A DNA stretch of 64,000 bases from Gemmatimonadota bacterium (GTDB taxonomy: Bacteria > Gemmatimonadota > Gemmatimonadetes > Gemmatimonadales > GWC2-71-9): assembly GCA_003169895.1 (NCBI GenBank), contig PNAE01000007.1, positions 906,407 through 970,406 on the forward strand, in the 5' to 3' direction. A program made the translations under genes and the position numbers. Under the pieces are notes generated by a model, which did not search any database, was not told the DNA's origin, and was given only the letters and a program-made list of their open reading frames with translations. Shown piece after piece: positions 7 to 48,533 of this stretch (the first letter of the stretch is position 1; the number at the start of each line of letters is the position of its first letter).

Positions 7-28
7 TTCTCTCGTCTCTCGTCCCTCG
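7..28 (-). repeat. GAGACGA-type tract 3' of dacB
   Basis: A pyrimidine-rich CTCTCGTCTC repeat on the plus strand ends directly at the dacB stop codon. On the dacB coding strand it reads GAGACGAGAGA. It belongs to the dispersed 3'-end tract family listed elsewhere in this window. A terminator or RNA-stability role is inference. Confidence 0.7.
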
Positions 29-2770: not shown

Positions 2771-2845
2771 GGGCGTGAGACGTGAGAGGCGACAGGGATG
2801 GGCGTGCGACGACGATGACGTCCTTTCTCTCGTCTTTCCTCTCTC
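2771..2845. repeat. facing repeat tracts 3' of the metF-type gene
   Basis: Directly after the stop at 2846 the minus strand reads a GAGAGAGGAAAGACGAGAGA tract. About 50 nt further lies the partly complementary GTGAGACGTGAGAG on the plus strand (2775-2788). The two could fold into an imperfect 3' hairpin between the fusion gene and the acyl-CoA dehydrogenase gene. Confidence 0.55.
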
Positions 2846-4678
2846 CTATTTCAGCACTTCCAGCGCCACCTCCACCTTCCCCAGCGGCGCCGCTACCTGC
2901 ACGCCACGGACCGACCCGCGTACCGCCGCGAGCATTTCCCGCGCGATCGCAACACCTTCCGCCAGCGCTGCCGCCTTCCCCTTCTCGCTCGCGCGCCGCA
3001 TCCGGGCGAGTGTCGCATCGGGGACCGTCACGCCGGGGACCTCATTGGCCAGAAACTCGGCGTTACGCAGCGATACCAATGGCCAGATACCGGCGATGAT
3101 CGGCACACCGAATCCTTCCGTGCGTGCCAGGAACACCTCCATCTGCCGGACATCGAACACTGGCTGTGTCATCGCGAACTGCGCACCCGCTTCGGCTTTC
3201 CACGCGAACCGTCTGAGCTCGCGGTCGAGATCGCTGGCTGCCGGATTGACGCCGACACCGTGGACGAAACGCGTGGGCGCGCCGATCGGGTTGCCGCCCG
3301 GGTCCAGGCCGTGGTTCAGGCGCGCCACAAGATTGGTGAGTCCGATGGCATCGATGTCGAACACGGCGGTGGCATCCGGATACGGCCCCATCTTGGGTGG
3401 ATCGCCCGTGACGATCAGCAGGTTGCGCAGGCCGGACGCCGCGGCACCGAGCAGGTCGGACAGCATGCCGAGCAGGTTGCGGTCGCGGCAGGCATAGTGA
3501 ATGACGGTTTCGATGCCGACCTCGCGCTCCACGAGCAATCCTGAAATCAGGGCACCCTGGCGGCTCTGCGCCCGGGGTCCATCCGGGATATTCACCGCGT
3601 CCACGCCAGCGGCCTTCAGCGCCCGCACTTGCGCGAGCATGGGTGCGGGGTCGACCCCGCGCGGTGGCACCACCTCGACGGTGGTGATCCACTGACCCGA
3701 GGCCAGTTTCGCACCGAATCGGGAGCGCTCCGCCAGCGGAACCTCCGCCACACCTTGCACATTGATCGTGGTAATGCTGCGTTCTGGCACCCCGGGAATT
3801 CCGGGTTGCGCGCTGCGAACGAAGCTGCGGATGGCCTTGATGTGCGCCGGCGTCGTGCCGCAGCAACCGCCAACGAAGCGTGCTCCGGCTTCGACCATTC
3901 GGCGCGCGTACTCCGCCATGTACTCCGGACTCGCCATGTAGATCTTGCGGTCGGCGACATCACGCGGCAGGCCAGCGTTGGGCTGCGCTGACACCGGCAC
4001 GTGGACCACCCGTACCAGCCGCTCGATCGCTTCAAGCACCACTTGCGGGCCGATCGAACAATTCACGCCGATGACGTCGGCACCGGCGGCCTCCAGCGCC
4101 GCTCCGAAGGCTTCCGGCGCGGTGCCATACGCGGTGCGGCCGTCCTGGCCGACCGTCACCTGGGCGATTACGGCGCAATCGCTGCGGGCGCGAACTGCGC
4201 GCAGCGCCGCCTCCAGCTCGTCGATGTCGGAAAACGTTTCCAGGCAGAATCCGTCGACGCCGCCGGCGAGCAAGCCGTCCACCTGGCGCCCGAACGCCAG
4301 TTCCGCTTCGTCGCGGCCCAGTGCGCCGAATGGCTCGAGCCGCACACCCAGCGGGCCGATCGCACCGACGATCGTGCAATGCGCGCCAGCGGCTCGTCGC
4401 GCCAGCACTGCCGCCGCGGCGTTCAGTGATTCAACCTCGGCCGACAGGCCGTATTGCATCAGCTTGAAGGGATTGGCGCCGAACGTGTTGGTTTCGATGA
4501 TTTCGGCGCCGGCATCGGCATACGCCGAATGCACGGAGCTGACGACGTCGGGCGCGCGGATCACCAACTCGTCGAAGCAGGTGTTGACGAACACGCCCTT
4601 GTCGTACAACATCGTCCCCATCGCGCCATCGACCACGTGCACGCGACCGTCGGCGATCAGCTCACGCAACGTTGGCAT
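2846..4678 (-). CDS. bifunctional homocysteine S-methyltransferase / methylenetetrahydrofolate reductase
   Basis: A 610-residue fusion. Residues 1-290 are a zinc homocysteine S-methyltransferase barrel with VDGAMGTML near 16, GVNCSIGP near 200 and the paired zinc cysteines in [10 protein letters not shown] near 270. Residues 320-610 are a MetF-type flavin reductase (TTVEVVPPRG, NIPDGPRA, FAMTQPVFD) making 5-methyl-THF. This is the YitJ-type arrangement known from Bacillus and many other bacteria. The start at 4678 lies 2 nt after the metH stop, so the two are co-transcribed and probably coupled. The pair supplies methyl-THF and methylates homocysteine. The reading frame stays open upstream into metH but has no better start. 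Confidence 0.9.
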   Translation of the reverse strand: MPTLRELIADGRVHVVDGAMGTMLYDKGVFVNTCFDELVIRAPDVVSSVHSAYADAGAEIIETNTFGANPFKLMQYGLSAEVESLNAAAAVLARRAAGAHCTIVGAIGPLGVRLEPFGALGRDEAELAFGRQVDGLLAGGVDGFCLETFSDIDELEAALRAVRARSDCAVIAQVTVGQDGRTAYGTAPEAFGAALEAAGADVIGVNCSIGPQVVLEAIERLVRVVHVPVSAQPNAGLPRDVADRKIYMASPEYMAEYARRMVEAGARFVGGCCGTTPAHIKAIRSFVRSAQPGIPGVPERSITTINVQGVAEVPLAERSRFGAKLASGQWITTVEVVPPRGVDPAPMLAQVRALKAAGVDAVNIPDGPRAQSRQGALISGLLVEREVGIETVIHYACRDRNLLGMLSDLLGAAASGLRNLLIVTGDPPKMGPYPDATAVFDIDAIGLTNLVARLNHGLDPGGNPIGAPTRFVHGVGVNPAASDLDRELRRFAWKAEAGAQFAMTQPVFDVRQMEVFLARTEGFGVPIIAGIWPLVSLRNAEFLANEVPGVTVPDATLARMRRASEKGKAAALAEGVAIAREMLAAVRGSVRGVQVAAPLGKVEVALEVLK

Positions 4679-4680
4679 GC

Positions 4681-8460
<3,780 letters not shown>

Positions 8461-8468
8461 TACGGTTT

Positions 8469-8514
8469 GTCATCCTGAAAGAAGCGCCCGCAGGGCGCGA
8501 AGTCGAAGGATGAC
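8469..8514. repeat. palindromic intergenic repeat upstream of metH
   Basis: Outer arms GTCATCCT / AGGATGAC enclose an inner hairpin GCGCCC-GCA-GGGCGC. It fills most of the 65-nt gap between metH and the YggT gene. It leaves no room for a SAM or cobalamin riboswitch here. Confidence 0.75.
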
Positions 8515-10085: not shown

Positions 10086-10311
10086 GTCGTTCCTGGTGTC
10101 CTTGCTTGGAGCTGTTGGCTGTTGGCTCGGAGCTACTTCGCGTCCTGCATGGATTACGCCTGCGGACCGGCTCCCAGCTCCTGGCTATTAGCTACCAGCC
10201 ATTCGCCAATCACCAGAAGAATCACCTTGTGCCCCTCATTCCGGTAGCGGTAACCCAGCGGGGCTGACCGCCGCCGCGCACCATAACTCACTATGGGACA
10301 TGATGTTGCGG
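10086..10311. repeat. intergenic region with AGCT/GGCT-rich repeats
   Basis: No gene was seen. It contains repeated words such as GCTGTTGGCTGTTGGCTC near 10110-10130 and AGCTCCTGGCTATTAGCTAC near 10176-10195. These look like a second low-complexity intergenic family, different from the GAGACGA tracts. Confidence 0.5.
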
Positions 10312-10581: not shown

Positions 10582-10588
10582 GGCTGAA

Positions 10589-10713
10589 ACGTAAGACGTA
10601 AAACGTAAGACGGAAACTCTCTGTTGAGTGGCGTTATGCCGCCACCTTTTGCCTTTCCCGTCTCCCGTCTCCCGTCTCCCGTCTCACGTCTCACGTCTCT
10701 CGTCTCTCGTCTC
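10589..10713. repeat. GTCTCCC/GTCTCAC/GTCTCTC tract 3' of mgtE with facing GTAAGAC tract
   Basis: From 10656 to the mgtE stop the plus strand repeats CCCGTCTCC, GTCTCACG and GTCTCTCG. At 10589-10613 the plus strand reads ACGTAAGACGTAAAACGTAA, partly complementary to it. The unit varies from GTCTCCC to GTCTCAC to GTCTCTC along the tract, as in an evolving heptamer array. Confidence 0.75.
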
Positions 10714-11917
10714 TCACCTCAGCAGCGTGTTGTGCAGCAGCAGGAAGGCCACGCTGAAATAGATCACCAGCCCGGTGACGTCCACCAGTGTCGCCACGAA
10801 CGGTGCCGATGCGCTGGCCGGGTCCAGCCCGAATCGCCGCAGCAGGAAGGGCAGCATCGATCCGGCGACCGAACCGAAGAGCACGACGCCGATCAGGGCA
10901 CAGAACACCGTTGCCGCGACGAGCATGTAATGCACGCCGTAATCGAGCCCGAGCGTCACGCCGAATGCGCTCCAGTGATGCGCCGCAAGAAACTGCCACA
11001 GCAGGATGCGGACAAAGCCGATGGCGCCGAGCATCGTGCCGAGTGCGAGCCCGGTGGGAATCTCGCGCACCACCACGCGCCACCAGTCGCGCAGCGCCAG
11101 CTCCTTCAGGGCCATCGCGCGAATGATCAACGACGTCGATTGCGACCCGGAGTTGCCGCCGGACGAAATGATCAGTGGAATGAACAACGCGAGCACGGCG
11201 GCGCGCTCGATGTCATGCTCGAAGTGCCCCATCGCCTGCGCGGTCAGGGTCTCACCCACGAAGAGGATCGCCAGCCACCCGCCGCGCTTCCTGAGCATTT
11301 CCAGGAACGAGATCTGCAGGTACGGTTCGTCGATTGCCTCCATGCCGCCGAGCTTCTGGACATCCTCGGTCTGTTCCGACACCAGCGCGTCGATGATATC
11401 GTCCACCGTGACGATGCCAAGCATCCGGTGCTGGTCGTTGACCACCGGCAGTGCGAGGAGGTTGTACTTGGAGATCAGCCGGCCCGCATCCTCGCGGTCC
11501 ACCAGCGGATCGACCACGATCGGCTCACGATCGTCGCCGATGTCGGTCACGACCGTGTCGTCGGGCACCATCATCACTTCTCGCAGCGAGATCACGCGCT
11601 GCAAGGTGTTCTCGGCAGGATCGATGATGTAAATCGGCGGAGAGTGCATCGACCAGCGGTGCTGCGACGCTGACCTGGAGCTGCTCGACGATGTCGCCGC
11701 GCCGTTCCAGCTCGGGTTCGTCGAACAGCTGGACCGCCAGCTCGAACGGCAGCGCGCCGACCACGCGCGCCGCGGCTTCCACCGGCAGGTGATTGAGCGC
11801 CTCGGCAATGTCGACCGCACGCAGGTCGGCGGTCGCCGCGGCAAAATCATCCTCGTCGCCGCTGAGGAGGTAGAGGAGTTCCGGGGTCAGTTCGGGAGGG
11901 GCGGAGGGTGATTCCAT
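10714..11917 (-). pseudogene. mgtE: magnesium transporter MgtE, internally deleted and frameshifted
   Basis: MgtE is a dimeric Mg2+ channel made of an N-domain, two CBS domains and five membrane helices. Here the N-domain (MESPSAPPELTPELLYLLSG ... APLVDALSAD) runs from 11917 to about 11645 in one frame. The second half of CBS1 onward (IYIIDPAENTLQRVISLRE, CBS2, then the helices with SSGGNSGSQSTSLI) continues in another frame down to 10714. The rest of the N-domain and the first part of CBS1, roughly 60 residues, are missing at the join near 11640. The transmembrane part is intact in sequence. It is a deletion allele, a pseudogene or an assembly error; the junction leaves no way to make a normal protein. 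Confidence 0.8.
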
Positions 11918-11938
11918 GTTGTGGGCCCTCCGGGTGAG

Positions 11939-11991
11939 CAGGGGCGCAGCATGCTGCGCTCGTGCAGGTCAGGGGCACAGCATGCTGCGCC
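11939..11991. repeat. tandem CAGCATGCTG palindromes upstream of mgtE
   Basis: Two 22-bp copies of CAGGGGCRCAGCATGCTGCG plus two bases, 31 bp apart. Each contains a self-complementary CGCAGCATGCTGCG-type core. They sit between the mgtE start and the lipoprotein stop and could be a terminator for the lipoprotein gene or a mobile-palindrome family. Confidence 0.6.
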
Positions 11992-18126: not shown

Positions 18127-18143
18127 GATCATCGGAGCTCAGA

Positions 18144-18243
18144 GTTACCGAGTTACCGAGAGTTACCATTTTTGCCTAAGTCACCTTAAGAGACGTTTGA
18201 GGATTACTTAGGTGAATCGGGTAACTCTCGGTAACTCGGTAAC
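18144..18243. other. candidate replication origin: 24-bp perfect inverted repeat of GTTACC iterons
   Basis: Arms at 18144-18167 and 18220-18243 are exact reverse complements, each made of three GTTACC units (spacing 8 then 10). The 52-nt centre is AT-richer and holds a second inverted repeat, CCTAAGT (18175-18181) / ACTTAGG (18206-18212). Position immediately 3' of the primase-helicase gene matches where satellite and P4-type origins lie. A terminator is less likely given the repeated units. Confidence 0.65.
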
Positions 18244-18391
18244 TGTCGCCCCCGGCGGTGACTCGGGGACCACGGTCCTTGGCCGGTCAGCCCCCGGCCA
18301 CCGAAAGCCCCTCCGCGTACGTGCGCGCAAGCCAACTGAACAGCGCATTGTCTCATTCGGCCACCCTTCAACACGCAAACCCTTTGGCCGC

Positions 18392-26577: not shown

Positions 26578-28200
26578 ATGAGCGCCATCGGCAACATTCC
26601 CATCCCGATCAACGAACCGATCCTGAGCTATGCCCCCGGCTCGGCCGAGCGCGCGGCGCTGCAGGCCGCGATCAAGGAACTGGCCGGGGTCGTTACCGAG
26701 ATCCCGGTGGTCGTGAACGGACACGAGCATCACACCAACAAGACCGTCGCGGTTACGTCGCCGCAGCGGCACCAGCACCGGCTGGCCACCGCGCACCAGG
26801 CGCCATCGACGCTACTGCACGACGCGATCGATGGCGCCGCGGCGGCGCAGCATGACTGGGAGCACTGGTCGTTTGCCGACCGCGCGGCTGTGTTCCTCAA
26901 GGCCGCCGACCTGCTGAGCGGGCCATGGCGTGCGCGGATGAACGCCGCGACCATCCTCGGCCAGGGGAAGACACCGCACCAGGCCGAGATCGATGCTGCC
27001 TGCGAACTCGCCGACTTCCTCCGCTTCAACGTGCATTACGCCGAGCGGTTGCTGCACGAGCAGCCGATTTCGGTGCCCGGCGTATGGAACCGCCTCGATT
27101 ACCGGCCGCTCGAAGGCTTTGTCTACGCCATCACGCCATTCAACTTCACCGCCATCGGCGGCAACCTGCCGACGACACCCGCGATTCTCGGCAACGTGGT
27201 GCTGTGGAAGCCATCAACGACGGCGCTGCTGTCGAACTGGTTGTTCTACCAGATCCTGCGTGAAGCCGGCTTGCCGCCCCGCGTGATCCAGTTCGTGCCG
27301 GGCGAGTCCGCCGCGGTTACCGACGTGCTGCTCTCCGATCCGCGCCTGGCCGGTATTCACTTCACCGGCTCGACACCGGTGTTCCATCAGTTATGGAAAG
27401 GCGTGTCGGAACGGCTGGATCAGTACCATGCCTATCCGCGACTCGTCGGCGAAACCGGCGGGAAGAATTTTGTGCTGGCCCATTCCAGCGCGGATGTCGA
27501 GGCGCTGGTGACGGCACTGGTTCGCGGCGCCTTCGAGTATCAGGGGCAGAAGTGCTCGGCGGCGTCGCGCTGCTACATCCCGCGCTCGCTCTGGTCACGG
27601 GTCGAGGCCCGGCTGCGTGAGGAGATTGGCAAGCTCAAGGTCGGCGATCCGGCGGACTTCTCGGTCTTTGTCGGCGCGGTCATCGATTCGCGCGCGTTCA
27701 AGCGGCTGGAACAGGTGCTTGTTGCGGCCAAGGCGGATCCCCGAGTCGGGGTGATCGCTGGCGGCAACTGCAACGCCGGCGAAGGCTGGTTCGTCGAGCC
27801 GACGCTGCTCGAGACTTCCGATCCGCATCACCAGGTGATGAGCGTCGAGTTCTTCGGACCGATCCTCGCCGCGTACGTCTACGAAGACAACCGGTGGGAC
27901 GACGTGCTCACGCTGGTTGATTCCGCGTCACCGTACGCGCTGACGGGCGCGATCTTCGCGCAGGAACGCAGCGCCATCGTGTCGGCTGACCGCAGGCTGC
28001 GCCACGCGGCTGGCAACTACTACGTCAATGACAAGTGCACCGGTGCCGTGGTGGGTCAGCAGCCGTTCGGTGGCGCTCGCGCTTCGGGGACGAACGACAA
28101 GGCCGGCAGCATCCTCAACCTCTATCGCTGGGTCTCTCCTCGGGCCATCAAGGAAGTCGGCAACCCGCCCAAGGACTGGAGATATCCGTATCTCGAATGA
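26578..28200 (+). CDS. pruA: L-glutamate gamma-semialdehyde (1-pyrroline-5-carboxylate) dehydrogenase
   Basis: 540 residues. It oxidises glutamate semialdehyde to glutamate with NAD+ in proline catabolism. Conserved segments: ITPFNFTAIGGNLP near 185, the Rossmann HFTGSTPVF near 265, the active-site ETGGKNF near 300 and the catalytic Cys in YQGQKCSAASR near 330. The length and N-terminal extension match the stand-alone human ALDH4A1-type enzymes. The element ends about 100 bp upstream, and the first codons (MSAI) are duplicated at the other end, so the present promoter and perhaps the first residues came with the element. No proline dehydrogenase is visible nearby. Confidence 0.92.
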   Translation: MSAIGNIPIPINEPILSYAPGSAERAALQAAIKELAGVVTEIPVVVNGHEHHTNKTVAVTSPQRHQHRLATAHQAPSTLLHDAIDGAAAAQHDWEHWSFADRAAVFLKAADLLSGPWRARMNAATILGQGKTPHQAEIDAACELADFLRFNVHYAERLLHEQPISVPGVWNRLDYRPLEGFVYAITPFNFTAIGGNLPTTPAILGNVVLWKPSTTALLSNWLFYQILREAGLPPRVIQFVPGESAAVTDVLLSDPRLAGIHFTGSTPVFHQLWKGVSERLDQYHAYPRLVGETGGKNFVLAHSSADVEALVTALVRGAFEYQGQKCSAASRCYIPRSLWSRVEARLREEIGKLKVGDPADFSVFVGAVIDSRAFKRLEQVLVAAKADPRVGVIAGGNCNAGEGWFVEPTLLETSDPHHQVMSVEFFGPILAAYVYEDNRWDDVLTLVDSASPYALTGAIFAQERSAIVSADRRLRHAAGNYYVNDKCTGAVVGQQPFGGARASGTNDKAGSILNLYRWVSPRAIKEVGNPPKDWRYPYLE

Positions 28201-28202
28201 CC

Positions 28203-28229
28203 GGGAGACGCGAGGCGAGAGACGAGAAC
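28203..28229 (+). repeat. GAGAC-type tract 3' of pruA
   Basis: GGGAGACGCGAGGCGAGAGA and a following GACGAGAAC start 3 nt after the pruA stop, purine-rich on the coding strand. It is a shorter, more degenerate example of the tract family. Confidence 0.6.
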
Positions 28230-30518: not shown

Positions 30519-31817
30519 ATGCTTTCACGGCGCAAGTTCATCGGTACGTCGTCCCTCGCGTTGGCCGGCACCGCGTGCGGTGTGGGGACCCGGGGGAAGA
30601 TCCAACCCGGCGCGACACCGGTCGACACGAAATTGCCGCCCAGCATTGCAGCGCTGGCGTCGATGCGGAGCCAGGCAACCCCGATCGCTGTCGCTGAGCG
30701 CCGCGCGCGCCTCGACCGCGCCCGGGCGCTCATGGGCGAGAACCATCTCGACGCCATCATCCTCGGCGGCGGCACGTCGCTGGTCTACTTCACCGGGATG
30801 CGATGGGGGAACAGTGAACGCCTGACCTGCGTCGTCATTCCCGCGCGGGGCGAGGCGTTCGTCGTGACGCCCATGTTCGAGGAGGAGCGGACGCTCGAAC
30901 AGGCCCGCACCGGTCCGCTGGGGACCGGAACCCAGGTGCTCACGTGGGACGAGGATCAGAGTCCGTACCAACGGGTGGCCGAGGGGCTCAAGTCGGCGGG
31001 CCTCACGACGGGCAGGGTCGGCATCGAGGAAACCGTGAAGTACGTGTTCGCCGACGCGATTGCACAGGCGAGTCCCGCGCTTCACATCGCCAGCGCGACA
31101 CCGGTCACGGCCGGATGCCGCATGATCAAGGACCCGCATGAGCTGGCGCTGATGCGCCTGGCCAACCAGGTCACGCTCAAGGCGTACGAAGCGGTGTACC
31201 ACGCCACCCAGCCGGGAATGACGCAGGACGCGGTCGGCACCCTGATTGCCGCGGCCTACGGCCGGCTGGGATTCCCCGGGGATGCGACCGTGCAGGTCGG
31301 GAAATACACCGCGCTCCCGCATGGCTCGGCGACACCGCAGACGATACGTGAGGGAGCCATCATCATGATCGATGACGGCTGCACGGTGGAGGGATATCAG
31401 TCGGACATCACGCGGACCTTCGTGCTGGGCAAGGCGACGGACAAGATGAAGCGGGTGTTCGACATCGAGCACGCAGCGCAGACCGCGGCGCTCAGGGCGG
31501 CGCGCCCCGGCGTGGAAGCGCAATCAGTGGATGCCGCGGCGCGGCGTGTGATCGAGGACGCGGGATACGGGCCCGGCTACAAGTACTTCTCACACCGCGT
31601 GGGTCACGGCATCGGCATGGACGGGCACGAGTGGCCGTATCTGGTCAAGGGCAACACGCTCAGGCTGCAGCCTGGCATGACCTTCAGTGATGAACCCGGC
31701 ATCTACATCCAGGGCGAGTTCGGCGTCCGGCTCGAGGACGACATGCACATCACCGAAAACGCGGCCGAGCTGTTTACGCCGCAGAGCCCGAGCCTGGAGG
31801 ATCCGTTCGGGAAGTGA
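30519..31817 (+). CDS. exported M24-family aminopeptidase (Xaa-Pro type), Tat lipoprotein
   Basis: 432 residues. The N-terminus SRRKFIG is a twin-arginine motif and LAGTAC a lipobox, so it is probably exported folded and lipidated. A creatinase-like N-domain (LDAIILGGGTSLVYFTGMRW) precedes the pita-bread catalytic domain: metal ligands Asp in IMIDDGCTVEGYQSDITRTF, His in HRVGHGIGMDGHE, Glu in FSDEPGIYI and Glu in RLEDDMHI are all present. It would remove N-terminal residues before proline. It is in a unit with the M20 gene, suggesting periplasmic peptide scavenging. Confidence 0.9.
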   Translation: MLSRRKFIGTSSLALAGTACGVGTRGKIQPGATPVDTKLPPSIAALASMRSQATPIAVAERRARLDRARALMGENHLDAIILGGGTSLVYFTGMRWGNSERLTCVVIPARGEAFVVTPMFEEERTLEQARTGPLGTGTQVLTWDEDQSPYQRVAEGLKSAGLTTGRVGIEETVKYVFADAIAQASPALHIASATPVTAGCRMIKDPHELALMRLANQVTLKAYEAVYHATQPGMTQDAVGTLIAAAYGRLGFPGDATVQVGKYTALPHGSATPQTIREGAIIMIDDGCTVEGYQSDITRTFVLGKATDKMKRVFDIEHAAQTAALRAARPGVEAQSVDAAARRVIEDAGYGPGYKYFSHRVGHGIGMDGHEWPYLVKGNTLRLQPGMTFSDEPGIYIQGEFGVRLEDDMHITENAAELFTPQSPSLEDPFGK

Positions 31818-31830
31818 GACGAGAGACGAG
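31816..31830 (+). repeat. GAGACGA tract at the M24 stop
   Basis: GAGACGAGAGACGAG begins inside the M24 stop codon and fills the 16-nt gap to the convergent HlyD gene. Confidence 0.65.
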
Positions 31831-31833
31831 CGG

Positions 31834-32877
31834 TCAGGCCCTGGGGACTCGAATCGAGACTTCGACCGACATGCCCGGGCGCAGCGGATACTTCGGATCG
31901 GCCGGCGACGTGACCCGGATCCGCACCGGGACGTTCTGGACTACCTTCGTGTAGTTGCCGGTCGCGTTGTCCGGCGGCAACAGTGCGAACTTCGCGCCCG
32001 TGGCGGGTGACACACTCTCGACGACTCCGGTGAACTGCCGGCCGTCGTAGCTGTCGACCGTGAATCCGACCGAATCGCCCACTGCCAGCCGGCCGAGCCG
32101 GGTTTCCTTGACGTTGGCCGTGATCCAGATCGCATCCAGCGGCACCAGGGTCATTGTGGTCTGGCCCGGCTGCACCAGCATGCCGGGCTCGACCGTGCGC
32201 TTGGACACGATGGCCGCGAATGGCGCGGTGACGACCGCGTAGGACTGGCGCAATGTCGCGGTGGCGAGAGTGGCCCGGGCTGACGCGACCCGGGCGTCTC
32301 CGCCGGTCAGCGCAGCGCTCGCGACGCCGACCTGCGCCTTCGTCGCCGCCGCCTGGCGCTGCGCCGCCTGAAGATTCGCCGCCGCGGCGTCGGCGGCGGC
32401 CTGTGCCGCGTCCAGTTGCTGCGCCGCCACGATCTGCTTGGCGGTGAGGCCCCGAATGCGTTCGAGGTCGGCGGACGCCTTGCGATACGCCGCCGCCGCG
32501 CTGGTGACTGCGGCCTCGGCGCCGGATGCGGTGGCCTCGGCGGCGGTGACCTGCGCCGCCAGTTGTCCCGCCTGGTGTCCGCTGCCGGCCATCGCCACGG
32601 CGGAGGCGAGATCCGCCGTGGCCTTGGCGACGTCCGCGTCGAGGTCGCGCGCATCGAGCACCAGCAAGGTGTCACCGGCCTTGACCACCTGGTTGTCCTC
32701 GACCGGAACGCGGGCCACGAACGCCTGCAGCTTGCTGGCGACCGGTTCGAGGCGCCCGTCGACCTCCGCGTTGTCAGTGGTCACATGACCGCGCGAGTAG
32801 AGATACATCTTGCCGCCCCACACGGCGGCGCCGATGACCGCGATGCCGACGACGATGAACGGAGTCTTGCTAGCCAT
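31834..32877 (-). CDS. HlyD/EmrA-type membrane fusion protein
   Basis: 347 residues: one N-terminal membrane segment (FIVVGIAVIGAAVWGGKMYLY), a lipoyl half-motif (VTTDNAEVDGRLEPV), a long Ala/Gln coiled coil at about 90-200 (AADAAAANLQAAQRQAAATK), the second lipoyl half and a beta-barrel ending LRPGMSVEVSI. It is the periplasmic adaptor that links an inner-membrane pump to TolC. No inner-membrane transporter gene is adjacent, so it either borrows a pump elsewhere or the pump was lost. It is the last gene of the TetR-TolC-HlyD operon. Confidence 0.88.
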   Translation of the reverse strand: MASKTPFIVVGIAVIGAAVWGGKMYLYSRGHVTTDNAEVDGRLEPVASKLQAFVARVPVEDNQVVKAGDTLLVLDARDLDADVAKATADLASAVAMAGSGHQAGQLAAQVTAAEATASGAEAAVTSAAAAYRKASADLERIRGLTAKQIVAAQQLDAAQAAADAAAANLQAAQRQAAATKAQVGVASAALTGGDARVASARATLATATLRQSYAVVTAPFAAIVSKRTVEPGMLVQPGQTTMTLVPLDAIWITANVKETRLGRLAVGDSVGFTVDSYDGRQFTGVVESVSPATGAKFALLPPDNATGNYTKVVQNVPVRIRVTSPADPKYPLRPGMSVEVSIRVPRA

Positions 32878-32892
32878 CAGAAGATCCTCGTG

Positions 32893-32962
32893 TCAAAATG
32901 ACGAGAGACGAGAGACGAGAAATCCCGGAGTGGTGTCGTGCCGCTGGGTTTCTCGTCTCTCC
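32893..32962. terminator. inverted GAGACGA tracts between TolC and HlyD genes
   Basis: A perfect 13-bp inverted repeat (32910-32922 with 32949-32961) is built from the GAGACGA family, with a 26-nt loop that itself holds CCGGAG/CCGC words. It is positioned 3' of the TolC stop and upstream of the HlyD gene. It could be a partial terminator or processing site within the operon. Confidence 0.55.
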
Positions 32963-32967
32963 TGCTG

Positions 32968-34290
32968 TCAATGCACGTTGCTCAGCAATCCCATCGCTCG
33001 CGCCGCATTGATCTGTGCCGCGCCCGCCGAAAGCCGGGCCTGGATCAACGCATCATGAGCCGCGGCGACTTCCGATTGCGCGTTGGTCGTTTCTACGCTG
33101 CCGGTGACTCCCGCAGCGAAGCGCTCGCGCGCCTCCGACAGCTCTTCCTCGGCCAGGCGCACCCGGTCGTTCGCCAGGGCGAGCTGGTCGCGCGCCGACG
33201 CGAGGTCGAGCGCCGCTTCCCGCACGTCCGTCTCGATCTGCGCTTCGAGGTCGTGCAGCCGGCGCGTCTCGGCGTCGAGGCGCAGGCGCTGCTCATCGAC
33301 ACGACGTTCACGGCGGAAGCCGTCGAATAGCGACCAACTCAATCCGACACCGATGTTCCAGGTGCCCGCCAGGCTATCGATGCCGGTGCCGGAGGTCTGC
33401 ACGAATCCCGAGGCGGCAATCGACGGAATGAATTCGCTCTTGATCGCTGTGAGGCTGCGCTGCATGGCCACCTGTCGCGCGCGTTCAGCCGCGAGATCGA
33501 CGCGATGCGACCGGGCGACCGCCACTGCGGCCTCGATGTCGGTCGGGAAGGTGTCGCTGGTGATTGGCGCATCGGCTGACACCACTACGGGCGTGCCCGG
33601 CGGCAGGTCGACCGCACGCGCGAGGTCGAGGCGCGCGCGATCGCGCTCGTTGCGCGCCACGGCGGCGTCGACTCGTACCGCGGCTGCCCGCGTTTCGCTG
33701 CGGGTGCGGTCGATCCGCGGTGCGGTGCCGGCGTCGACCTGCGATCGCGCGATTTCGAGCAGTGCGAACGCGGTGACCGAGTCCTGTTCGCGGGCCGTCA
33801 CGGTCTCCTGCGCGCCGGCCAGTCGCAACCACGCGGCGCCCGCGGTCGCGGCGGCGAGGTCGCCCGCGCGCTCGGCATCGAGTCCCGCGGCGATCGCCGT
33901 GTCGCGCGCGGCACGGAGTCGCTCGATCGTGGCCCGATCGAACAGCACCTGGCTGGCGCCCAATCGCGCCCGGAACAACGTGAACGGATCGGTGATCGCA
34001 GGAAACCCGGGAATCGACAGGCCGAACTCGTGCAGGTTGAGCGTCTGTCGCTGCACCGTGCCGCTGCCTTCGACCTGCGGCAGCAACGCGGCACCCTGTT
34101 CCCGCTGGCGCACGCGGGTTCCCTCGGCGGACAACTGCGCCAGTGCCGCCTGCAGCCCGTTACTGCGGCCGCGAGCCAATGCCTGGCCGAGCGTCATGGT
34201 GACCGATTGCGGCGGTGCCTGTCCTTCCGCCGGGAGCATCCGGCCCATGACGAGGCAGGCCGCCAGCGCGCCCGATCGCCGGACGATCAT
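32968..34290 (-). CDS. TolC-family outer membrane efflux protein
   Basis: 440 residues beginning MIVRRSGALAACLVMGRMLP, a signal peptide ending near EGQA. Two repeated outer-membrane efflux domains follow (TMTLGQALARGRSNGLQAA near 30; AVAVARSHRVDLAAERARQV near 250), with long Ala/Arg-rich helices and the conserved NIGVGLSWSLFDGF near 335. It forms the outer-membrane channel. The start lies 11 nt after the tetR stop. The open frame continues upstream through tetR in another phase, which is not coding. Confidence 0.88.
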   Translation of the reverse strand: MIVRRSGALAACLVMGRMLPAEGQAPPQSVTMTLGQALARGRSNGLQAALAQLSAEGTRVRQREQGAALLPQVEGSGTVQRQTLNLHEFGLSIPGFPAITDPFTLFRARLGASQVLFDRATIERLRAARDTAIAAGLDAERAGDLAAATAGAAWLRLAGAQETVTAREQDSVTAFALLEIARSQVDAGTAPRIDRTRSETRAAAVRVDAAVARNERDRARLDLARAVDLPPGTPVVVSADAPITSDTFPTDIEAAVAVARSHRVDLAAERARQVAMQRSLTAIKSEFIPSIAASGFVQTSGTGIDSLAGTWNIGVGLSWSLFDGFRRERRVDEQRLRLDAETRRLHDLEAQIETDVREAALDLASARDQLALANDRVRLAEEELSEARERFAAGVTGSVETTNAQSEVAAAHDALIQARLSAGAAQINAARAMGLLSNVH

Positions 34291-35088: not shown

Positions 35089-35212
35089 ATAGATTGCGGC
35101 AATCACCGGTCAAGGAGCGGCGAGAGATTCGCGTCTCTCGTGTCGCTTCTCTCTTCTCTCTTGCCTCTTTCTGCTCTACATTGATCTCAACCTACCGGGA
35201 GGCCACTCGCCC

Positions 35213-42092: not shown

Positions 42093-42794
42093 ATGGCGCC
42101 CGGCCAGAAACCGTTCTATATCGCCCTCGCGGTCGTCGTCGTCGCCGGCGGCCTGTTTATTACCAGCCGGGTTCGCAGCGCCCGCTCCGTCTCGATCCCC
42201 GCGAATGTTGTGGTAACGGCCGCCGACACCTCCGGGTTCCGCGGCTATCTGCTCGGCGCGTCGAGCGCGCCGGTCGAGATCGCAGAGTATGCCGACTACC
42301 AGTGCCCGCATTGCGCGGATTTCGATCAGGTGCAGTTCCCCGACATCAAGGCCCGCCTGATCGATGTCGGCAAGGCCCGCCTGCGGTTCCGCGACTTTCC
42401 GATCGAGGGCGACCAGAGTCGCGTGGCGGCGCATGCCGCGGCGTGCGCCAGTGACCAGGACAAGTTCTGGCAGGTCAAGGAAGGATTGTTCCGCCGCCAG
42501 ACCGACTGGGCGTTGCATACCAACCCGATGCCGGTGATCACCGACATCATCAAGGCCGCCGGCCTCGACGTCAACTCCTGGAACGCGTGCATGCAGTCGG
42601 CCAAGTACGCCGGCCGCATCCAGGCGTCATACAACGAGGGGGCCAAGCTCGGTGTCAACGCCACGCCGTCCTTCCTGATCGGCGGGCGGATCTACAGCAG
42701 CATCAGCAGCGATGAAATCGTGAAGCTGGTCGATTCGCTGGTCGCCGCGGCTCCCCACTCTCCCGGCGCGACAACTCCTCTCGGCGGCCAATGA
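42093..42794 (+). CDS. DsbA-like thioredoxin-fold protein
   Basis: 233 residues: an N-terminal membrane anchor (PFYIALAVVVVAGGLFITSR), then a thioredoxin_4/DsbA domain with catalytic CPHC in EYADYQCPHCADFDQVQF near 75 and the cis-Pro in GVNATPSFLIGGR near 195. It acts outside the membrane in disulfide formation or isomerisation. The start 42093 opens the anchor; GAGG precedes it. The 3' end overlaps kup by 4 nt. Confidence 0.87.
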   Translation: MAPGQKPFYIALAVVVVAGGLFITSRVRSARSVSIPANVVVTAADTSGFRGYLLGASSAPVEIAEYADYQCPHCADFDQVQFPDIKARLIDVGKARLRFRDFPIEGDQSRVAAHAAACASDQDKFWQVKEGLFRRQTDWALHTNPMPVITDIIKAAGLDVNSWNACMQSAKYAGRIQASYNEGAKLGVNATPSFLIGGRIYSSISSDEIVKLVDSLVAAAPHSPGATTPLGGQ

Positions 42795-44722
42795 CCGCTG
42801 ATCGCAAGCCGCCATCGGGCAAGGTCCTCGCCGGCCTTGCCCTCGCGGCGTTGGGAGTCGTTTACGGTGACATCGGCACGTCACCTCTCTATGCCCTGAA
42901 GGAATGCTTCAATGGCGCCCACGCGGTGCCGCTGTCACCCGAGAACGTCCTCGGCGTGCTGTCGCTGGTGTTCTGGTCGCTCAATTTCGTCATCTCGTTC
43001 AAGTACATCGCGATGGTGCTGCGCGCCGACAATCAGGGCGAGGGCGGCATCCTCGCGCTGCTCGCGCTGGTCCGGCCGCGCGGGACGACGGGGCATCATC
43101 GCGAGCTGCTGCTGATGCTCGGCCTGTTCGGCGCCGCACTGCTCTACGGTGACGGCGTGATCACACCCGCGATTTCGGTGCTGTCGGCGGTGGAAGGCCT
43201 TCACGTCGCGACCCCGGCGTTCCAGCTCTGGATCGTGCCGCTCACGGTCGGCATTCTGACCGCCTTGTTCTGGATCCAGAAGCGCGGGACGGCGAGCGTG
43301 GGGAAGATGTTCGGTCCGCTGATGGTGCTCTGGTTCGGCTGTCTCGCCGCGCTTGGCATCCACGGGATCGTGCAGCATCCCGGTGTGGTCGCGGCACTGA
43401 ATCCGCTCCACGCACTCGCCTACCTCCAGCGCAACGGCCTGCACAGCCTCTTCGTGCTGGGTTCGGTGTTCCTGGTGCTGACCGGTGGCGAAGCACTGTA
43501 CGCCGACATGGGGCACATCGGACGCCTGCCGATCCAGGTGGCGTGGTATTGCTTCGTCCTCCCGGCGCTGATGCTCAACTATCTCGGGCAAGGCGCGGTA
43601 CTGCTGGCGCGCGGGCAGGGTGCCGTGCCCAACCCGTTCTACAGCGTGGTGCCCCCCTGGGCGCTCTATCCAATGGTCGTGATTGCGACCATGGCCGCAA
43701 CCATCGCCTCGCAGGCGTTGATCTCGGGAGCGTTCTCGCTGACGCAACAGGCGATGCAACTGGGCTTCGTTCCGCGCATGCGGCTGGTCCATACCTCACG
43801 CAGCCAGATTGGTCAGATCTACATGCCTGGCATCAACTGGACGCTCTGGCTGGGCACGATCGCCCTGGTGCTGGCGTTCCGATCGTCCGACAACCTCGCG
43901 GCAACGTACGGTGTCGCGGTTACCGGCACCATGTTGATCACGACCATCCTGTTCGCCGTGGTCCAATATCGCATCTGGCACTGGCCGCTTCCGGGCGTGC
44001 TCGCGCTGACGTCACTGTTCCTGGTGGTCGATGTGGCGTTCTTCGGCGCCAACATGATCAAGTTTGTCGAAGGAGGGTGGTTCCCGCTGGCCGCGGCCGC
44101 GGTGATCTACCTGTTGATGAGCACATGGCGTCGGGGACGCCAGCAGGTGATCGGGATCCTGACCGACGCCTCGCTGCCGCTCGACCTCTTCGTACCCGAC
44201 ATCGACCGGCGAAAGCCGCCGCGCGTCCCGGGCGTTGCGGTCTTCATGACGTCGATTCCCGACATGGCGCCGCCCGTGCTGCTGCACCATCTCAAGCACA
44301 ACAAGATGTTGCACGAGAAGGTCATTCTGATGACCCTGACGTCACGCGACATTCCGCAGATCGCCGAGTCCGACCGGGTGGTGGTGGAAGCGAGAGGTGC
44401 CGGCATCTATCAGGTCACGGCGCGCTATGGTTTCATGGAATCACCCAACGTGCCGCGGATCCTCGAGACGGTCGCGCAACGGTTGCATGAGCCGGGCGAA
44501 CCGGCGCCCTCGCTCAAGATGCACGACGTGACGTTCTACCTCGGACGCGAGACCCTGATCGTCCTGCCGCGCCAGCCCGGCGCCGCGCCACCGCCGGGCG
44601 CGATGCCACCATGGCGCGCGGAACTGTTTGCCGTGATGAGCCGCAATGCGCTCAGCGCCGCGAACTTCTTCGGCTTGCCGCCCAACCGGGTCGTCGAGCT
44701 GGGGGCGCAGATACAGGTCTGA
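42791..44722 (+). CDS. kup: KUP-family potassium uptake protein
   Basis: 643 residues. The diagnostic GVVYGDIGTSPLYALKECF is near 18, followed by LVFWSLNFVISFKY, GEGGILALLALV and about 12 membrane helices over 430 residues, then a soluble C-terminal domain of about 170 residues. It is a K+/H+ symporter. It is coupled to the DsbA-like gene by an ATGA overlap, a pairing without an obvious shared function. Confidence 0.93.
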   Translation: MTADRKPPSGKVLAGLALAALGVVYGDIGTSPLYALKECFNGAHAVPLSPENVLGVLSLVFWSLNFVISFKYIAMVLRADNQGEGGILALLALVRPRGTTGHHRELLLMLGLFGAALLYGDGVITPAISVLSAVEGLHVATPAFQLWIVPLTVGILTALFWIQKRGTASVGKMFGPLMVLWFGCLAALGIHGIVQHPGVVAALNPLHALAYLQRNGLHSLFVLGSVFLVLTGGEALYADMGHIGRLPIQVAWYCFVLPALMLNYLGQGAVLLARGQGAVPNPFYSVVPPWALYPMVVIATMAATIASQALISGAFSLTQQAMQLGFVPRMRLVHTSRSQIGQIYMPGINWTLWLGTIALVLAFRSSDNLAATYGVAVTGTMLITTILFAVVQYRIWHWPLPGVLALTSLFLVVDVAFFGANMIKFVEGGWFPLAAAAVIYLLMSTWRRGRQQVIGILTDASLPLDLFVPDIDRRKPPRVPGVAVFMTSIPDMAPPVLLHHLKHNKMLHEKVILMTLTSRDIPQIAESDRVVVEARGAGIYQVTARYGFMESPNVPRILETVAQRLHEPGEPAPSLKMHDVTFYLGRETLIVLPRQPGAAPPPGAMPPWRAELFAVMSRNALSAANFFGLPPNRVVELGAQIQV

Positions 44723-44767
44723 GACGAGAGACGAGAGACGAGAGACGTGAGATGTGAGACGTGAGAA
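44721..44767 (+). repeat. GAGACGA/GTGAGAC tract 3' of kup
   Basis: Starts inside the kup stop codon with four GAGACGA units, then changes to GTGAGAT/GTGAGAC units. A pyrimidine-rich CCTCTGCTCCCTTC region follows before the convergent TetR gene. Confidence 0.75.
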
Positions 44768-44806: not shown

Positions 44807-45463
44807 TTACGCCGTCTCCGCTTCCGCCAGGCTTGCGGCGAGCAGTGCCCGCGCGGTCCAGAGCGTCACGCGCTCGGCGGCCGCCGGTGTGAGGCCTTGC
44901 GTGTCCTGCAGCAGAAACAGCGAATCCATCCCGACGCATGATACCAGGGCCGATACGAGGCGGATGAACCGGCGCTCACCGAGGCGGGCGCGCACCGGTG
45001 CCACCGCGGATGTCAGCCATTCCACGCGCCGATAGCCGCGCACCGGGCGGGTGCCGGTCTTCCGCCCCGTGGTGAGGCGAATCATCGTCCGCAGCAACGC
45101 GGTATGCTCGAGTGCCAGGCGATGCATCACTCGCACAGTGGCGGCGAGCTGCAGCTCCGCCTGCCCGACGTCGTCAAGCGTCCCCGCTGCGGCCGGCAAT
45201 GCCGCCGCCATGGCGGCCTCCACTTCCGGTCGCAGCGCCTCGAGCGATGCTTCGATCAGCAGCTGATCCTGGGTGGGGAAATACCGGTATGCGGTTCGCC
45301 GTGAGATATCCGCTGCGTCGGCCACGTCGACCACCGACGGAGTCTGCCCGGCGGCAATGAGTCGTGCGGCGCTGGCGAGCAGAGCCATCCGGGTTCGACG
45401 CTTCTGACCGCTGCGAGGGTCCGCCGGAGCGACGGCGTCCTGCCGACGGGATTTTGGGGACAT
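44807..45463 (-). CDS. TetR-family regulator
   Basis: 218 residues. TetR_N domain at about 25-70 (ALLASAARLIAAGQTPSVVD, DAADISRRTAYRYFPTQDQL), then a helical ligand domain with a Cys (VSCVGMDSLF). ATG 45463 has GGAG at -9; the open frame to 45520 would cross the operator. It is divergent from the lipoprotein gene over a nested palindrome and probably controls both. Confidence 0.85.
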   Translation of the reverse strand: MSPKSRRQDAVAPADPRSGQKRRTRMALLASAARLIAAGQTPSVVDVADAADISRRTAYRYFPTQDQLLIEASLEALRPEVEAAMAAALPAAAGTLDDVGQAELQLAATVRVMHRLALEHTALLRTMIRLTTGRKTGTRPVRGYRRVEWLTSAVAPVRARLGERRFIRLVSALVSCVGMDSLFLLQDTQGLTPAAAERVTLWTARALLAASLAEAETA

Positions 45464-45509
45464 CGATGGCTCCGGCTTGACAGGGAATCGGGCGAAACGT
45501 AGCTTGACT

Positions 45510-45554
45510 GGAAATGGCACACTAGTGTCATGACGACACTAAACTGCCATTTCC
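45510..45554. promoter_or_regulatory. nested palindromic operator between tetR and lipoprotein genes
   Basis: Outer arms GGAAATGGCA / TGCCATTTCC (45510-45519, 45545-45554) and inner arms TAGTGTC / GACACTA (45523-45529, 45535-45541) share one centre. Such two-tier symmetry is consistent with two TetR dimers or overlapping divergent promoters. Confidence 0.7.
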
Positions 45555-45632
45555 TTGGTTGCGCCCAGCGGTCCGGCACCGGCGCGAGCCCAGGCCTGCG
45601 AGTCGGTGCTGGCATGCAAGAGGGAGAAGTCC

Positions 45633-46430
45633 ATGACGTCGTATCACAGACGCGCGCTGGCAATCGGTGCCGCCGCCTGCGGGCTCGCCGTCGCGACCGG
45701 GGCGATCGTCACGGCATGCTCCAGCGATGCCGGTGCGAATCAGGGCCCAAGCACGCAATACGGCACGCCGGTCACGGTCGGCAATGGCAACGCCCGATCA
45801 TACCTCGTGCTGCAGAACGGCACGCCGACCGAGCTGGGTGTGGCGCTGAGCCAGGGCGCCCTGGATAGCCTGCCGATGACGCCGAAGATGGGTGGGTATG
45901 AGTTTCTCTTGCCGCTCCCGGCGGGCAACACCACGCAGTTCCAGGTGGTCGGATTGAATTGGAACCCAACGGGCCATCCGCCGCCGATGGTTTACACGGT
46001 GCCGCATTTCGACTTCCATTTCTACATGACGTCGCTGGCGGACCGCAACGCCATCGATCCCTCGGATCCCGCGTTTGCCACCAAGGCCGCCAGCCTCCCT
46101 GCCGCCGACTTCCGGCTGGCCGGCTACGTCGCCGATCCTCCGGCGAATGCGATCCCGCACATGGGCTTGCACTGGACCGATTCGAACGCCCCGGAATTTC
46201 ACGGCCAACCCTTTACCCGGACGTTCATCACGGGATCATGGAACGGTCAGTTCACCTTCTTCGAGCCGATGGTGACCCGGGCATATCTCCTGACCAATCC
46301 GGACGAGGTAGTGCCGGTGGGAAGCGCATCGCAACGGGCTATCAGCGGGTACTACCCGGCGGCGTACCGCGTGACCTGGGACGCCGCGAAGGCGGAGTGG
46401 CACATCGCACTCGCCAGCCTGACGCATTGA
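45633..46430 (+). CDS. secreted lipoprotein, DUF5602/TTHB210-like
   Basis: 265 residues. Signal with lipobox IVTAC (GAIVTACSSDAGANQG). The mature domain has MVYTVPHFDFHFYM near 120 (His/Asp cluster), GYVADPPANAIPHMGLHW near 175 and GSWNGQFTFFEPMVT near 205, resembling TTHB210-like domains of unknown function; the clustered His suggest metal binding. The start has AGGGAGAAG upstream. It is divergent from a TetR gene. Confidence 0.65.
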   Translation: MTSYHRRALAIGAAACGLAVATGAIVTACSSDAGANQGPSTQYGTPVTVGNGNARSYLVLQNGTPTELGVALSQGALDSLPMTPKMGGYEFLLPLPAGNTTQFQVVGLNWNPTGHPPPMVYTVPHFDFHFYMTSLADRNAIDPSDPAFATKAASLPAADFRLAGYVADPPANAIPHMGLHWTDSNAPEFHGQPFTRTFITGSWNGQFTFFEPMVTRAYLLTNPDEVVPVGSASQRAISGYYPAAYRVTWDAAKAEWHIALASLTH

Positions 46431-46449: not shown

Positions 46450-46586
46450 ACGAGAGACGACGGACGAGAGACGTGAGACGTGAGACGTGAGACGTGAGAC
46501 GTGAGACGTGAGACGAGACAACGGCTACCACCTGGAGCCAAGGATAGCAACGATCCACTTCTCTCGTCTCTCGTCTCTCGTCTCTC
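46450..46586. repeat. facing heptamer arrays between convergent genes
   Basis: Six perfect GTGAGAC copies run from 46473 to 46514, preceded by GAGACGA units after the lipoprotein gene. At 46559-46586 the plus strand repeats CTCTCGT up to the acs stop. Each array is purine-rich on the strand of the gene it follows. A 44-nt unique spacer separates them. Confidence 0.85.

Positions 46587-48533
<1,947 letters not shown>

Follow-up and report, generated by a model that had tools for sequence, protein, structure and literature searches.

Heptamer palindromes behind stop codons of a Gemmatimonadota genome and the replacement of their units among congeners

Heptamer arrays in the window

The window analysed here is a stretch of 64,000 nt from a Gemmatimonadota bacterium (assembly GCA_003169895.1, contig PNAE01000007.1; C8:906407-970406 in our numbering), the genome of which comprises 3.42 Mb in 13 contigs and is designated G000 in the comparison with congeners. 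An original prediction, made from the letters alone, had named at least eight intergenic arrays of the 7-nt units GAGACGA, GTGAGAC or close variants, each at or close behind a stop codon. Such heptamers, often paired as two arms of a palindrome, were found at the following positions (gene coordinates are those of a purpose-built codon-pair model caller, not of a curated annotation).

8-28, minus strand: heptamer arm, GAGACGA in the sense of the minus strand, directly behind the stop of the minus-strand gene 29-1498
C8:906389-906402, plus strand: purine-first partner arm of 8-28, just left of the window
2771-2845, minus strand: degenerate heptamer palindrome, read by eye, following the homocysteine S-methyltransferase/MTHFR gene's stop, 2846-4678 (minus)
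10656-10713, minus strand: first arm, GAGACGA passing into GTGAGAC and then GGGAGAC, immediately next to the stop codon of the MgtE-type transporter gene 10714-11649 (minus)
10587-10616, minus strand: second arm, pairing with 10656-10713, GTAAGAC/GTAAAAC variants on the plus strand
28203-28229, plus strand: degenerate heptamer tract, read from the sequence, behind the stop of gene 26578-28200 (plus)
31816-31830, plus strand: array of 2.1 units, overlapping the stop of the M24 peptidase gene 30519-31817 (plus)
32950-32967, minus strand: first arm, following the stop codon of the OEP gene 32968-34290 (minus)
32900-32920, minus strand: second arm of the same palindrome, three GACGAGA units on the plus strand
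35134-35162, no strand assigned: AAGAGAG/TCTCTCT array between divergent genes
44721-44766, plus strand: array of GAGACGA then GTGAGAC, beginning within the stop of the kup-type K+ transporter gene 42791-44722 (plus)
46450-46515, plus strand: first arm, GAGACGA then about 6-7 GTGAGAC units, behind the stop of gene 45633-46430 (plus)
46560-46586, minus strand: opposite arm, pairing with 46450-46515, GAGACGA in the sense of the minus strand, immediately next to the stop codon of the acetyl-CoA synthetase gene 46587-48533 (minus)

Most of the eight predicted sites were recovered. The tracts at 2771-2845 and 28203-28229 are too degenerate to stand by themselves, the former lying below the period-7 threshold, and the site at 31816-31830 has just 2.1 units; there, only 16 nt separate the M24 peptidase gene from the convergent gene 31834-32877 (minus). 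The site given as 32893-32962 is palindromic, with its stop-adjacent arm at about 32950-32967 and the partner at 32900-32920. A further palindrome, TGGCGGCATAACGCCA, lies between the arms 10587-10616 and 10656-10713. The proposed rule of stop adjacency holds at the stops at 29, 10714, 31817, 32968, 44722, 46430 and 46587, but the array at 35134-35162, which had been missed, is a counter-example.

The window gave 8 period-7 segments, as compared with 0.27 in dinucleotide-preserving shuffles (maximum 2 in 60). Seven of them (8-28, 10656-10715, 32900-32920, 35146-35162, 44721-44766, 46463-46515 and 46560-46586) are of the GAGACG/GTGAGAC type or a close purine/pyrimidine variant, and the eighth, at 10111-10127, is an unrelated GCTGTTG repeat in or near a gene. 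The run of perfect copies noted earlier in one array was located as GTGAGAC within 46463-46515 (7.6 copies, 97% match). No Rfam family was matched in the window at gathering score.

Period-7 arrays and gene ends across the genome

Genome statistics were derived from 864 kb, composed of the 64-kb window, which was given, and 800 kb of added stretches, mostly picked for holding matches (C8:1-260000 is mostly contiguous); 738 genes were called. In a count of all tandem periods from 1 to 24, with no motif presupposed, perfect runs of at least 22 nt are essentially of period 7 only, 58 being intergenic and 10 in called genes, with single matches at periods 9 and 14. If mismatches are tolerated, the period-7 arrays number 82 between genes and 20 within them, intergenic arrays of the other periods from 4 to 13 number 0-1 each, and those of period 14 are the period-7 arrays again. 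The main units, GAGACGA, GTGAGAC, GTGAGAG, GTAAGAG, GTGAAAC, GTGAAAG and GGGAGAC, are variants of one purine-rich theme. The 14-mer GAGACGAGAGACGA has 121 exact copies genome-wide, and its reversed control none.

Every one of the 30 sites with arrays between convergent genes has an end no more than 30 nt from a stop, and all 35 strand-assigned arrays in convergent intergenes are in the sense of the gene whose stop precedes them, with a distance centred near 5 nt. Hence, neither the lack of enrichment at stops nor the random orientation that would have spoken against the original prediction was seen in the 864 kb. The share of gene pairs with an array site is 28% for convergent, 9% for tandem and 7.5% for divergent pairs. 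Where tandem gaps are at least 150 nt long, the upstream stop is no more than 30 nt away at 13 of 18 sites, with 6.4 expected (P = 0.0008), and compact spacing alone is therefore insufficient as an explanation. Most genic arrays lie within about 22 nt of the stop of their own gene and thus run into its last codons.

Arm pairing and polarity

A first arm is present at 59 gene ends; at 32 of these, a heptamer partner arm was detected 20-98 nt further on, and the stems often stretch across the entire stop-to-stop gap. Relative to shuffles, folding is more stable by 0.145 kcal/mol/nt at array-bearing ends and by 0.03-0.05 at other gene ends; a stable RNA hairpin behind the gene, as in intrinsic terminators, is thus predicted by computed folding. 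At the 46430/46587 junction, folding and arm pairing both agree with the earlier suggestion of a foldable 3' end with both arms.

The two arms of a palindrome match each other in their variants, with GTGAAAG arms opposite CTTTCAC arms and GAGACGA arms opposite TCGTCTC arms; the two arms at C8:1011395 carry their variants in mirrored order. The mean pairing energy is -36.3 kcal/mol for own arms and -29.1 kcal/mol for swapped arms, own arms being better in 23/26 cases, and 0 of 10,000 permutations were as good. In 50/51 palindromes the arm with G>C is the first, and the same polarity is seen with units as unlike as GATGACA, GACACGG, GGTATCA, AGTGCAG and GGGTGAA. As the element is palindromic, each flanking gene automatically has the purine strand as its coding strand, and this does not count as independent evidence of a role at the transcript level. 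The consistent orientation claimed earlier therefore holds as a strand pattern but is in part automatic, and the informative fact is the G-rich-first polarity.

Of 74 intergenes with arrays, 55 have no sequence outside the array in common with any other part of the 864 kb, and by this measure no conserved stem-loop consensus exists among the copies. A single mobile element copied as a unit was rejected for most sites on the same count. The exceptions that share non-array sequence include C8:1127385 with C6:30355, and C5:22532 with C2:23336 and C8:1325577.

Unit replacement and empty sites at homologous junctions

The units were compared with those of congeners, of which G003, G005, G008 and G009 were covered by pattern counts and short loci only. 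GAGACGN arrays are present in G000, G001, G003 and G009, GTNRGTC arrays in G005, G008 and G009, and GGAGACC in G003 only. G004 has GATGACA, GGAGAAG and CTAGAGA types, with 25 intergenic arrays in 200 kb, no genic ones and other periods near 0. No arrays were found in 240 kb each of G007 (same genus) and G027 (same family), and essentially none in G055 (200-240 kb), and conservation of array presence across the family was rejected. In G059, from another family of the same order, there are 55 GAGACGN triple-unit matches genome-wide, yet one period-7 array in a 240-kb sample, which suggests that its arrays are clustered or horizontally acquired. Long arrays stand at draft contig ends (G001:C1:3-127, G008:C17:3-65 and G003:C308:5-25), so that assemblies are probably broken there and draft counts underestimated. 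Loci L101 and L102 apparently belong to the same genomes as G001 and G009, given their identical junction sequences, and are therefore not independent.

Three convergent junctions could be followed between genomes. At the kup/acetyl-CoA synthetase junction, the arms consist of GAGACGA in G001, GACACGG in G009, GTTAGTC/GTGAGTC in G005, GTCGTAG in G008 and GGAGACC in G003, and G004 has GATGACA on the synthetase side and CTCGAGA on the kup side; there are no heptamers at this junction in G002, G006 and G007. At the inositol-monophosphatase (IMPase) junction, the units are GAGACGA in G000, GGGTGAC in G004, GAGAGGA/GGAGAAA in G005, GGAGACC in G003 and GTAGGTC, with an inner GGTGAAA palindrome, in G008, and the genes overlap in G001 and G002. 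At the glycosyltransferase junction, a different heptamer insertion is present in each of G000, G001 and G008, and the convergent genes overlap in G007, G004, G005 and G002, which is likely to be the ancestral state. Since the units differ at three homologous junctions and the genes abut or overlap in other congeners, the palindromes are recurrent insertions. The alternative of mobile microsatellite drift raised in the original prediction was only half right, the palindromes being gained insertions whose arms co-vary.

In the sequences compared, repeat length, mirrored layout and position thus recur between relatives, and unit sequence does not. Statistical conservation of array position is not claimed, the samples being small (G000 against G001, P = 0.26; against G004, P = 0.02).

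The neighbourhood of the first junction also varies. In the window, two genes with TetR_N and TTHB210-like domains (44807-46430) lie between kup and the acetyl-CoA synthetase gene, whose nearest relatives are in Gemmatimonadetes/Gemmatimonadales metagenome-assembled genomes. At least the TTHB210-like gene is also present there in G007, and kup and the synthetase gene are direct neighbours in most other congeners. The G006 junction (L246, L259) has several copies of another palindrome (GGTGCCGCA...TGCGGCACC).

Insertions that alter protein ends

Gaps of 99-168 nt in G000 correspond to -19 to +21 nt in the orthologous pairs of G007 and G001. At the IMPase site, CAGCTC-[palindrome]-TTACTTCGTCAAG in G000 aligns with CAGATC-CTACATCGTTAG in G001, and the site reads as a clean insertion just behind the stop of the minus-strand gene. 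The plus-strand gene has lost its last codons there and now ends in LGETRDVRRET*. At 15 gene ends the array begins at least 2 codons ahead of the stop; the array-coded tails are mostly -RRET*, -RGER*, -KGEK* or similar, and TGA or TAA lies within the heptamers. As judged from these reading frames, some palindromes rewrite protein C-termini and provide the stop codon. As 7 and 3 have no common factor, a unit with a stop triplet arithmetically stops every frame within about 21 nt.

Comparison with known repeats

An excess of heptanucleotides among long simple-sequence repeats of bacteria has been reported since 2007 (Mrazek et al. 2007, as described in PMC4679880), with its cause still unsettled. 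These repeats and the TAACTGA repeats of Beggiatoaceae share with the present arrays the period of 7 and a distribution that is patchy between genomes. However, the TAACTGA arrays are direct repeats located mainly upstream of start codons, whereas those described here are palindromic and lie behind stops.

Closer to the G000 elements are the GGGAATC heptameric repeats of Xanthomonas and related ones in Nostoc, for which G-quadruplex formation was proposed (Rehm et al. 2015, PMC4692102). In both cases 7-nt tandem units occur between genes at many loci, and the Xanthomonas repeats are alike in placement, inverted pairing and differing gene sites in related species. A GGGANTN unit able to form G-quadruplexes is lacking here, the main unit GAGACGA having no GGG run, and GGGAATC was seen only in L179 (Gemmatimonadaceae), where positions 11903-11982 behind a stop have GGGAATC as the first arm and GGTCGGA as the second. 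As the same layout is built from units unable to form quadruplexes, G-quadruplex formation is weakened as a general explanation. Beyond that report, the present data include unit replacement between congeners at homologous junctions, where the same sites are readable filled and empty, as well as co-varying arms and array-coded C-termini. No description of heptamer palindromes in Gemmatimonadota was found in the literature searched. The pattern is not confined to this phylum, since arms of GAAGAGT follow a stop at a Thermoanaerobaculia locus (L156).

Bidirectional intrinsic terminators between convergent genes likewise form a strong hairpin readable from both sides. They differ in that here the U-tract is mostly missing, the long repeat arms are 20-98 nt apart, and Rho is encoded in the genome.

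Interpretation and alternatives

The sequence comparison shows the heptamer palindromes to be insertions at 3' gene ends with co-varying arms, a G- or purine-rich arm first and units that change between congeners. Convergent genes whose counterparts in relatives abut or overlap are their most frequent place. Our preferred reading, to which a probability of about 0.5 is given as a whole, is that they are gained insertions retained at 3' ends as transcribed hairpins acting for both genes. They are read as REP-like heptamer palindromes without an evident transposase, the hairpin of which probably limits read-through or decay; termination or 3'-end protection is a plausible and the leading functional guess.

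Under this reading, the arms are tandem heptamers from a genome-specific set and would lengthen by 7-nt slippage, and fold-back copying from arm to arm would keep them complementary and build nested layers as in G008. The transcribed hairpin would form a 3'-end structure for both genes, giving less read-through into the opposing gene and/or blocking 3' exonucleases, and palindromes would be kept at 3' ends because of this effect. A purine-first arm would entail a pyrimidine-rich second arm and hence a strong RNA hairpin above a weak RNA:DNA hybrid. In terms of hybrid thermodynamics, the RNA:DNA hybrid of a pyrimidine-rich RNA arm is the weaker kind, and transcript release without a U-tract would therefore be favoured. 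The C-rich second arm might also be a target of Rho.

Several observations weigh against this reading. A U-tract follows the hairpin at only 3/17 tandem sites (controls 1/132), with a mean of 2.2 T per 10 in both; convergent sites are uninformative because the arm abuts the next gene. No partner arm was detected at 27/59 array ends, 7/83 sites are divergent, and mirrored variants are the sole basis of the fold-back step. G007 and G027 live without the elements, with convergent genes abutting, and the proposed function is therefore dispensable. A U-tract terminator as the general reading was rejected as applying to a minority of sites, and a simple terminator scan of 42-50 kb gave nothing above shuffles.

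The absence from close relatives, which manage without the elements, and the patchy spread would equally be expected of neutral or selfish palindromic repeats that lack a function and survive where harmless, behind stops in a compact genome. REPs (repetitive extragenic palindromes) are placed alike (PMC3733652), and the array-coded tails resemble tolerated damage. We regard this as possible, while leaning away from it: the upstream stop is still favoured in long tandem gaps (13/18 against 6.4), overlapping convergent genes leave hardly any neutral room and were nevertheless invaded repeatedly, polarity is one-sided across unrelated units, and the arms are kept complementary.

The resemblance to REPs extends further. 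Convergent REPs lie within 20 bp of both 3' ends and unidirectional ones near the upstream 3' end, sometimes supplying a stop codon, and they have a fixed stem of 20-40 bp, a small loop and a consensus, with a RAYT gene in addition for GTAG types (PMC3733652). The G000 elements, like GTAG- and CGTC-tagged REP, BIME and REPIN elements, are palindromic, intergenic, inserted beside 3' gene ends and at times the source of the stop codon, and some of their loops hold REP-like GTCATCCCGAG palindromes. Nevertheless, membership of a REP/REPIN-type family that a RAYT (Y1) transposase mobilises is very improbable, as arm length and unit vary, loops are mostly unique, 55/74 array intergenes have no shared non-array sequence, and the Y1 transposase PF01797 is absent from G000. 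No Y1_Tnp match was found in the array-carrying G000, G003 and G009, whereas G006, with few arrays, has one. Neither the Y1 transposase nor a reverse transcriptase (PF00078) correlates with arrays, and both were rejected as mover.

Identical tandem units at a fixed position could be binding sites at 3' ends for a repeat-recognising RNA- or DNA-binding protein, as also envisaged in the original prediction. A protein dedicated to GAGACGA/GTGAGAC is disfavoured, because unrelated heptamers replace the unit at homologous sites within one genus and several units occur within one genome; we give this explanation very little weight. A role at the DNA level, in which a cruciform, triplex or R-loop relieves supercoiling or head-on polymerase conflict at convergent genes, would suit perfect palindromes with polypurine arms concentrated between such genes, but the elements are also common behind tandem genes, at the upstream stop, and this too is improbable.

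A broader proposal is put forward tentatively, as one we think rather doubtful: that a sequence-agnostic process in Gemmatimonadota, and probably in other phyla too, repeatedly builds palindromes of 7-nt words at 3' gene ends with a vocabulary particular to each genome. Period 7, paired arms, G-rich-first polarity and stop adjacency would be conserved, with no dedicated transposase evident, and overlapping convergent genes would become separated, hairpin-insulated pairs. Why the unit is seven, how mirrored arms grow jointly and whether the hairpins insulate convergent genes become testable questions.

Other palindromes

REP-like palindromes (GTCATCCCGAG...CTCGGGATGAC) are found repeatedly in the genome, often in the loop of heptamer palindromes; places include L068, L040, the G008 loci L321 and L333, and window positions 7366-7391 and 8464-8510. 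Behind the stop at 18126, positions 18140-18248 of the window hold an inverted repeat of 8-9-nt repeats (CGAGTTACC / GGTAACTCGGTAACTCT), a hairpin with the layout of the heptamer palindromes and another period.
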